DNA from: an uncultured Acidobacteriota bacterium
Lineage (GTDB): Bacteria > Acidobacteriota > UBA6911 > CAINFC01
Direction: 5' to 3'
DNA length: 32,737 nucleotides
Assembly (NCBI GenBank): GCA_903847975.1
Contig: CAINFC010000072.1
Location: 1-32,737, forward strand
Below the pieces are notes generated by a model, which did not search any database, was not told the DNA's origin, and saw only the letters and a list, made by a program, of their open reading frames with translations. This document shows, in pieces, positions 20,526 to 22,320 of the stretch. The position numbers were made by a program, and so were the translations under genes. Numbering within the stretch: position 1 is the stretch's first letter; the number at the start of each line of letters is the position of its first letter.

Positions 20526-20692
20526 TGGCTTCGCAAGAAGAAATCCTTTAAACTGTCATCCTGTACGAAGCGCAGAGTAGTGAAGGATCTCGTTCGTAAT
20601 GGCTTCTTTTCAAAAGGATACAGGTTTCCCAAGGAGGAGATCCTTCGCTGCGCTCAGGATGACGGAGAGGGATGTGGGACTTTTTGCGAGAT
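20524..20692. repeat. Nested inverted-repeat element after the YPGG gene
   Basis: Inner arms 20555-20590 and 20638-20663 are imperfect inverted copies (GTCATCCTG...AGGATCT against AGATCCTTCG...CAGGATGAC), the common GTCATCCTGAGCGAAG type of dispersed bacterial repeat. The outer ends, GATGGCTTCGCAAGAAG (20524-20540) and GTGGGACTTTTTGCGAG (20674-20690), are degenerate versions of the terminal repeat of the 10197-10473 element. It starts at the stop codon of the preceding gene and could also act as that gene's 3' hairpin. Confidence 0.6.
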
Positions 20693-20731
20693 TATCAGTC
20701 CTGATCAAGCTGTAAAAAGTCCGTTTTGGAA

Positions 20732-20820: not shown

Positions 20821-20983
20821 TTCCTGTTTTTCGGATTTTTTGCACCTTCATCAGTCCTGACAATTTCGTAAAAAGTATTGAAAGCCCTTTCGGGGTTCTC
20901 CGGACTTATTGCAGCGCCATCATCCCTGATGGCTTCACAGGGGAATCTCTCTTTCTGCCTTCCCTGAAAAAAAACAGGCAACA

Positions 20984-21022
20984 TGACAAAATCTGTCAAC
21001 TTTCATGTGACATAATCTGTCA
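20984..21022. promoter_or_regulatory. Two tandem TGACA-N5-TGTCA palindromes: candidate enhancer (UAS) for the pilin promoter
   Basis: TGACAAAATCTGTCA (20984-20998) and TGACATAATCTGTCA (21008-21022) are two palindromes repeated with a 24-bp period inside a longer direct repeat. They end about 130 bp before the -24/-12 promoter of the pilin gene, a usual distance for an NtrC-family activator. Both carry ATCTGTC, which fits the C/G-TGTC core I recall for PilR. Alternative: subterminal repeats of a lost insertion sequence, since some IS families have similar multiple end repeats. Confidence 0.55.
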
Positions 21023-21150
21023 ACCCGCGGCTTGCTCAACCTCCTGCTTGTTTTGGGGAAATGGGTACAGAAAATAAACGGTTCATTTAAATATATATAA
21101 ATAAATGGGATGCATGATGGTTTTCCAAATTAGTTCTGAATTCCATCCTT

Positions 21151-21166
21151 TGGCACATTAAATGCT
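21151..21166 (+). promoter_or_regulatory. Sigma54 (-24/-12) promoter of the first pilin gene
   Basis: TGGCACATTAAATGCT fits the RpoN pattern TGGCACR-N4-TTGCW at all positions but one (A for the first T of TTGC), with the GG and GC exactly spaced. Transcription would begin near 21177, leaving a leader of about 70 bases. Pilin genes of several bacteria are known to use sigma54 with PilR. Confidence 0.7.
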
Positions 21167-21248
21167 AAGGGAGAGGTGGACAAAAAAAGAACAAATAAAA
21201 AGTAACCAAACAAAAATTTAAATTAACCATTTCAAAGGAGACAGTCTC

Positions 21249-21695
21249 ATGAGACAAAAAGGTTTTTCCCTGGTTGAGCTTCTGATCGTGGTTGCGATCA
21301 TCGCCATCATCGTGGCGATCGCGGTCCCGAACCTGCTCACTTCCCGTCAGGCCGCCCAATCGGCTGCCGCCGCCGGTGACCTGCGCACCATCAACTCGGC
21401 AATGATTGCCTATGCTTCCGGTTCGGGCAATGGGCAGTTCGCGGCCACTTTTGATGCCCTGCAGACCAACAACTACCTGCCAGCCAATTTTGGTGCTGGT
21501 ACCAACTATAATCGTGGAGGATATGTTGGCCTTCTTACCCCCGGTGCAGGAAATGCCACCTATAATGTGGTAGCCAATCCAATCGCCGGTGCCACCAATA
21601 CCGTTTTTTCCTATTACACGGATGAATCCGGTACGATCCGTTACAAGAACAGCAATGGTGCCAGCAATACCGACAAGCCGATGGGCACGCAATAA
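21249..21695 (+). CDS. Type IV pilin (major-pilin-like)
   Basis: 148 aa. Class III signal: a 5-residue leader MRQKG ending in Gly, then FSLVELLIVVAIIAIIV with Glu at mature position 5, the mark for prepilin peptidase cleavage and N-methylation. The hydrophobic helix ends at about residue 27 (AVPN). The rest is a Ser, Thr, Asn and Gly-rich globular domain with no Cys, so no disulfide loop. The C-terminus is YYTDESGTIRYKN...PMGTQ. It should polymerise into a surface pilus or pseudopilus. AAAGGAGA is 7-14 bases before the ATG. A sigma54 promoter lies upstream and a strong terminator downstream, which suggests high, regulated expression. No assembly genes (pilB, pilC, pilQ) are in the window. Confidence 0.92.
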   Translation: MRQKGFSLVELLIVVAIIAIIVAIAVPNLLTSRQAAQSAAAAGDLRTINSAMIAYASGSGNGQFAATFDALQTNNYLPANFGAGTNYNRGGYVGLLTPGAGNATYNVVANPIAGATNTVFSYYTDESGTIRYKNSNGASNTDKPMGTQ

Positions 21696-21717: not shown

Positions 21718-21745
21718 AAAGGGGGGGCTTCAAGCCCCCCCTTTT
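21718..21745 (+). terminator. Strong rho-independent terminator between the two pilin genes
   Basis: AAAGGGGGGGC (21718-21728), loop TTCAA, GCCCCCCCTTT (21734-21744): a perfect 11-bp stem followed by a short T-run. It lies 23 bases past the first pilin stop. Partial readthrough would give much more of the first pilin than of the second. Confidence 0.88.
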
Positions 21746-21813
21746 ACTTAGTAACCTGGTAAGAAAAACGAAAGATGATTCCAACCCTAATCCTGGAAGA
21801 TCGGGCTAAGGCT

Positions 21814-22320
21814 ATGAAAAGCAAAGAAGATCATCAAAGAAAAGAAAAGGCCGCAAAAGGGCTTGGTCAAGCCTGGCGCAATGCCGGAGGGTTTTCCCTG
21901 ATTGAGTTGCTGATCGTCGTAGCCATTATTGCCATTATTGTTGCCATAGCGGTGCCCAACTTCATGTCCGCCCGAAGGTCGGCACAGTCCTCTTCCATGA
22001 TCGGTGACCTGCGCGTGATCCACACTGCGGAAACAGCCTACTACACCGGACCCGGAAAATCCTCCTACGGCGATTTTAACGAACTGGAAGGAAACCGCTT
22101 TCTGCCGACCAATTTTTCCATCGGGTCTACCTCCTACCGCCGCCACGGCTACAACGGAAACCTGAACCTCGGAAACAGCAAAGCCACCTTCTTTGTTCAA
22201 ACCCAGCACAGTTCCTTTTCCGCATTGTCGCCTTCCTATTACATCAACGAAACCGGGACCATTCGATTTAATATCAACGGACTGGCGACTGCCTCCGACC
22301 TGCCGATCGGCACCAGGTAA
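21814..22320 (+). CDS. Second type IV pilin-like protein with a long charged leader
   Basis: 168 aa from ATG 21814 (an ATG at 21775 would add 13 residues; both ribosome sites are weak). The leader is about 26 residues, highly charged (MKSKEDHQRKEKAAKG...NAGG), before the cleavage site GG|FSLIELLIVV with Glu at +5. The hydrophobic helix differs from that of the first pilin by only V to I over 23 residues, and both proteins end in a YY-x-N/D-E-x-GTIR block and a P-x-GT tail, so they are paralogues. The central domain has diverged (TYYTGPGKSSYGDFNELEG region). It may be a minor pilin or an alternative subunit. It is read through the terminator or from a promoter I cannot see. Confidence 0.85.
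   Translation: MKSKEDHQRKEKAAKGLGQAWRNAGGFSLIELLIVVAIIAIIVAIAVPNFMSARRSAQSSSMIGDLRVIHTAETAYYTGPGKSSYGDFNELEGNRFLPTNFSIGSTSYRRHGYNGNLNLGNSKATFFVQTQHSSFSALSPSYYINETGTIRFNINGLATASDLPIGTR

Follow-up and report, generated by a model that had tools for sequence, protein, structure and literature searches.

The window, a stretch of 32,737 nucleotides from an uncultured Acidobacteriota bacterium, carries two pilin genes on its forward strand. The first, the type IV pilin gene pilA (21249–21695), starts with an ATG at 21249 and encodes 148 aa with the prepilin motif KGFSLVELL (Pfam N_methyl, TIGR02532). A ribosome-binding site, AAAGGAG, was read from the sequence at 21234–21240 on the same strand. Downstream of pilA there was a probable intrinsic terminator (21721–21740, forward strand; a pattern match only), and beyond it a second pilin (prepilin) gene (21775–22320, forward strand), 49% identical to the first. 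This second gene had neither a -24/-12 element nor an operator of its own and is possibly expressed by read-through. Upstream of pilA, the window contained an imperfect palindromic repeat, interspersed and REP-like, at 20677–20722 and 20833–20876 (GGACTTTTTGC...TCAGTCCTGA...GTAAAAAGTCC), which has 42 genomic matches when both strands are counted. An inverted repeat, GTCATCCTG...CTTCGCTGCGCTCAGGATGAC around 67 nt, at 20555–20663, resembles widespread interspersed hairpin elements.

Nearer to pilA, the initial annotation had described TGACA-N5-TGTCA palindromes with a 24-bp period, ending about 130 bp before a promoter that fits the RpoN consensus at all but one position, with AT-rich DNA in between. 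All these features were recovered. The two dyads, which we regard as putative PilR-type operators, are exact and have no assigned strand: the distal one, TGACAAAATCTGTCA, lies at 20984–20998, and the proximal one, TGACATAATCTGTCA, at 21008–21022. They are spaced 24 bp start to start and form a 17-bp direct repeat with 94% identity. From the proximal palindrome, an unstranded spacer of 128 bp (21023–21150) leads to the predicted sigma-54 -24/-12 promoter, TGGCACATTAAATGCT, at 21151–21166 on the forward strand. The promoter has one mismatch to TGGCAC-N5-TTGCW; its GG and GC are intact and 10 bp apart, the single mismatch falling outside this core. The spacer, which may loop, has an A+T content of 63%, versus 40% in the window (60% G+C). 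It contained no good match to an IHF-type site, the best having one mismatch to WATCARNNNNTTR. At sigma-54 promoters, transcription is RpoN-dependent and starts ~12 bp past the -12 element; for the pilin promoter the start is predicted at ~21177.

A genome-wide scan found exactly two copies of TGACA-N5-TGTCA in the 8.13 Mb genome, both at this locus, where base composition would give roughly five per genome. Two copies within 39 bp have an expectation of ~1e-4 or less. The scan for palindrome pairs proposed in the initial annotation returned a single pair, the one described here. The promoter pattern TGGCAC-N5-WTGCW occurred 18 times genome-wide on both strands, or ~2e-4 per 150-bp upstream region. 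Its reversed control occurred 13 times, so that the true pattern is scarcely enriched, and the -24/-12 match counts by its position and not alone.

The proteins needed to read such a promoter, rpoN and a PilR/NtrC homologue, had been named in the initial annotation as genes to look for, and both are present. There was one rpoN match in the genome, a 493-aa open frame (G000:C148). The sigma-54 activation domain (PF00158) gave 24 matches, 19 of them strong. The PilR orthologue (G000:C149:39165-40523) was the best match of the PilRs adjoining pilA in related genomes, with 51–54% identity to most of these, and has a receiver domain, an AAA+ sigma-54 activation domain with the GAFTGA loop and a Fis-type HTH. 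It is preceded by a PilS kinase with a 6TM_PilS domain. Both genes belong to a pilB-pilT-pilC-pilS-pilR locus on contig C149, and not on the contig of the window. In this locus, pilB and a pilT-like frame were recognized, and a pilC reading frame presumably occupies the gap, judging from the gene order in relatives. No pilin was found at the C149 locus; pilA is encoded in trans, on the contig of the window. Another genome, G007 (L129, L146), had three PilR paralogues (on C4, C89 and C66), only one of which was seen beside a pilin.

The order of the host is represented by this genome alone, and the comparisons were made at the class and phylum level. In class relatives the pilin gene order was pilB/pilT-pilC-pilS-pilR-pilA-rpoC, with pilR often divergent from pilA and with gene names assigned by homology and order. 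A -24/-12 element, defined as TGGCAC-N5-TTGCW with ≤2 mismatches within 200 nt of the pilin, preceded 16 of 17 pilins in PilR-bearing genomes of the class, the window being one of the 17, versus 1 of 14 pilins in genomes without PilR (Fisher p = 9e-7; the sequences are akin to each other, and p-values from them overstate independence). The effect sizes are close to all-or-none despite this kinship. G003 had a PilR and tandem operators without a good -24/-12 element, its best match having three mismatches. In the f29 pilins (L209, L218, L219, L225 and L226; G106, G214, G254 and G172), mostly with a TGACA dyad, the promoter read TGGCAC/T-N5-TTG with T or A as the next base, in place of TTGC at -12.

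The operator was recovered independently of the window. Upstream of 23 PilR-linked pilins, the window excluded, an unbiased tally of 5-mer dyads at all gaps of 2–9 ranked TGACA-N5-TGTCA first, with 17 of the 23 regions. The highest count that any dyad reached in 40 shuffles was 5. With at least 9 of 10 positions matching, the dyad was found at 23 of 31 PilR-linked pilins, and at none of the 14 pilins of PilR-less genomes or the eight of family f11. Most of the relatives' operators were doubled, 22–24 or 33 bp apart, and lay 72–134 bp before the -24 element; the 128-bp spacer here is at the long end of this range, the proximal site being at 72–112 bp in most. The PilR-linked pilins of the class and phylum share dyad and -24/-12 promoter, as the comparison of orthologous upstream regions suggested in the initial annotation now shows. 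A class-wide scan for degenerate tandem operators returned, as intergenic matches, this locus, three PilR-linked pilins (G010, G011 and G012) and one more site in G012; the three remaining matches look like chance. The additional G012 site (TGACCTTTTACGTCA / TGACAGATTGCGTCG, L245:1678-1909, on G012:C36) is followed by TGGCACCACTTTTGCA and, downstream, by an ORF cut by the contig end, MSSKKKVSLADLAIFV; it is a possible second PilR target.

Operator and recognition helix covary. PilRs with [YFV]-R-S-[LF]-R at the recognition helix go with TGACA-N5-TGTCA. In family f11 the PilR helix reads [ST]-K-[GP]-S-L-R-H, and TGCTG-N5-CAGCA was found at the same position in 8/8 f11 pilins (L084, L138, L149, L157, L160, L086, L141 and L145) versus 0/31 others (p = 2e-8; the f11 genomes are all related, and the covariation may be one evolutionary event). 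Compared with the TGACA type, the geometry is the same and the half-site altered. This covariation is the strongest argument that sequence alone offers for PilR as the likely reader of the dyads. We consider it likely that the PilR of this phylum reads a 15-bp dyad whose geometry is fixed, with TGACA half-sites for S[YFV]RSLRH helices, and that the half-site changed in f11 as regulator and operator co-evolved; an orthologous activator would thereby have switched its specificity in nature.

Because PilR co-occurs with the promoter, the dyad came out on top of the unbiased search, and helix and operator match, we interpret the stretch, with high confidence, as the sigma-54 promoter of the major pilin gene, preceded by a PilR-type upstream activating sequence, PilR probably acting in trans. 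Comparative evidence independent of the window also supports the NtrC/PilR-type enhancer and the sigma-54 control of the pilin that had been proposed from the window. Since pilA is not adjacent to pilSR here, the pairing of PilR with the operator rests on homology and on operator identity. This lack of linkage, together with the 19 strong PF00158 proteins in the genome, leaves a small probability that the promoter is sigma-54 dependent, but that another of the ~19 NtrC-family activators binds the tandem dyads. However, among the activators of this genome with readable C-termini, only PilR has the helix S-Y-R-S-L-R-H (SYRSLRHK), and in relatives with an adjacent pilR the dyad tracks the PilR orthologues.

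Dyads of the TGACA/TGTCA kind are common, and by themselves they need not indicate an activator. They could be the site of a repressor or other regulator, pilA being transcribed from a sigma-70-type promoter and the likeness to a -24/-12 element, a pattern without global enrichment, being incidental. This is very unlikely: a pattern scan gave no sigma-70-type match between the dyads and the pilin gene, and PilR-linked pilins throughout the class and phylum have the -24/-12 element in the same upstream position. An origin of the dyads by chance or from a mobile or interspersed repeat, insertion-sequence ends included, is effectively refuted: although the 500 bp upstream hold the interspersed palindromic repeat with its ~40 relatives in the genome, the dyads fall outside it, are present just twice, and recur independently in other genomes.

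Bound to the -24/-12 element, sigma-54 polymerase stays in a closed complex that melts only after contact with an upstream activator and ATP hydrolysis by the latter. In the PilR-dependent mechanism that we infer for pilA, phosphorylated PilR, supplied in trans from C149, would bind the two dyads, one dimer each. At 24 bp, about two helical turns, the dimers would sit on nearly the same helix face. Bound PilR would assemble into an AAA+ ring, the AT-rich DNA would bend, and PilR would reach the RNA polymerase-sigma-54 waiting at 21151–21166, where its ATP hydrolysis would drive open-complex formation. PilS would set the phosphorylation of PilR and may, by analogy with Pseudomonas, respond to the membrane pilin pool.

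The half-sites of the dyads are of the TGTC type, like those of the Pseudomonas PilR, for which a C/G-TGTC consensus is reported. Control of pilA by sigma-54 and PilR has been described in Proteobacteria and Myxococcus (PMC6058289, PMC6211767), GTCT elements and TGT-N11-AGA being hallmarks of PilR sites (PMC6058289). As in Pseudomonas aeruginosa, whose PilS is reported to sense pilin itself (PMC6058289), an NtrC-type PilR and a PilS-like 6TM domain are found here together with a predicted sigma-54 promoter of the major pilin gene and putative activator sites well upstream of it. Unlike in P. aeruginosa, with its loosely described half-sites, the sites here form a tandem of clean 15-bp dyads spaced by 22–24 bp, the phylum is another one, and there is no linkage between pilA and pilSR. 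Myxococcus xanthus and Geobacter sulfurreducens likewise have a sigma-54 pilA promoter, which an NtrC-like PilR activates (PMC6211767, PMC6058289), but for the PilR of Geobacter many targets are predicted (PMC6211767, PMC6058289), whereas this genome has one tandem operator. The arrangement also resembles NtrC/NifA-type enhancers, with paired dyads roughly 100–150 bp upstream of a -24/-12 promoter, and differs from them in operator sequence and cognate regulator. A literature search under the assumed name Acidobacteria turned up no paper that describes a PilR operator from this phylum.

A predicted operator for pilus control is now defined phylum-wide in a little-studied phylum, and the PilR regulon becomes predictable from sequence. 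In family f11, where helix and operator change together, there is a tractable case for learning how the Fis-type helices of enhancer-binding proteins read DNA.
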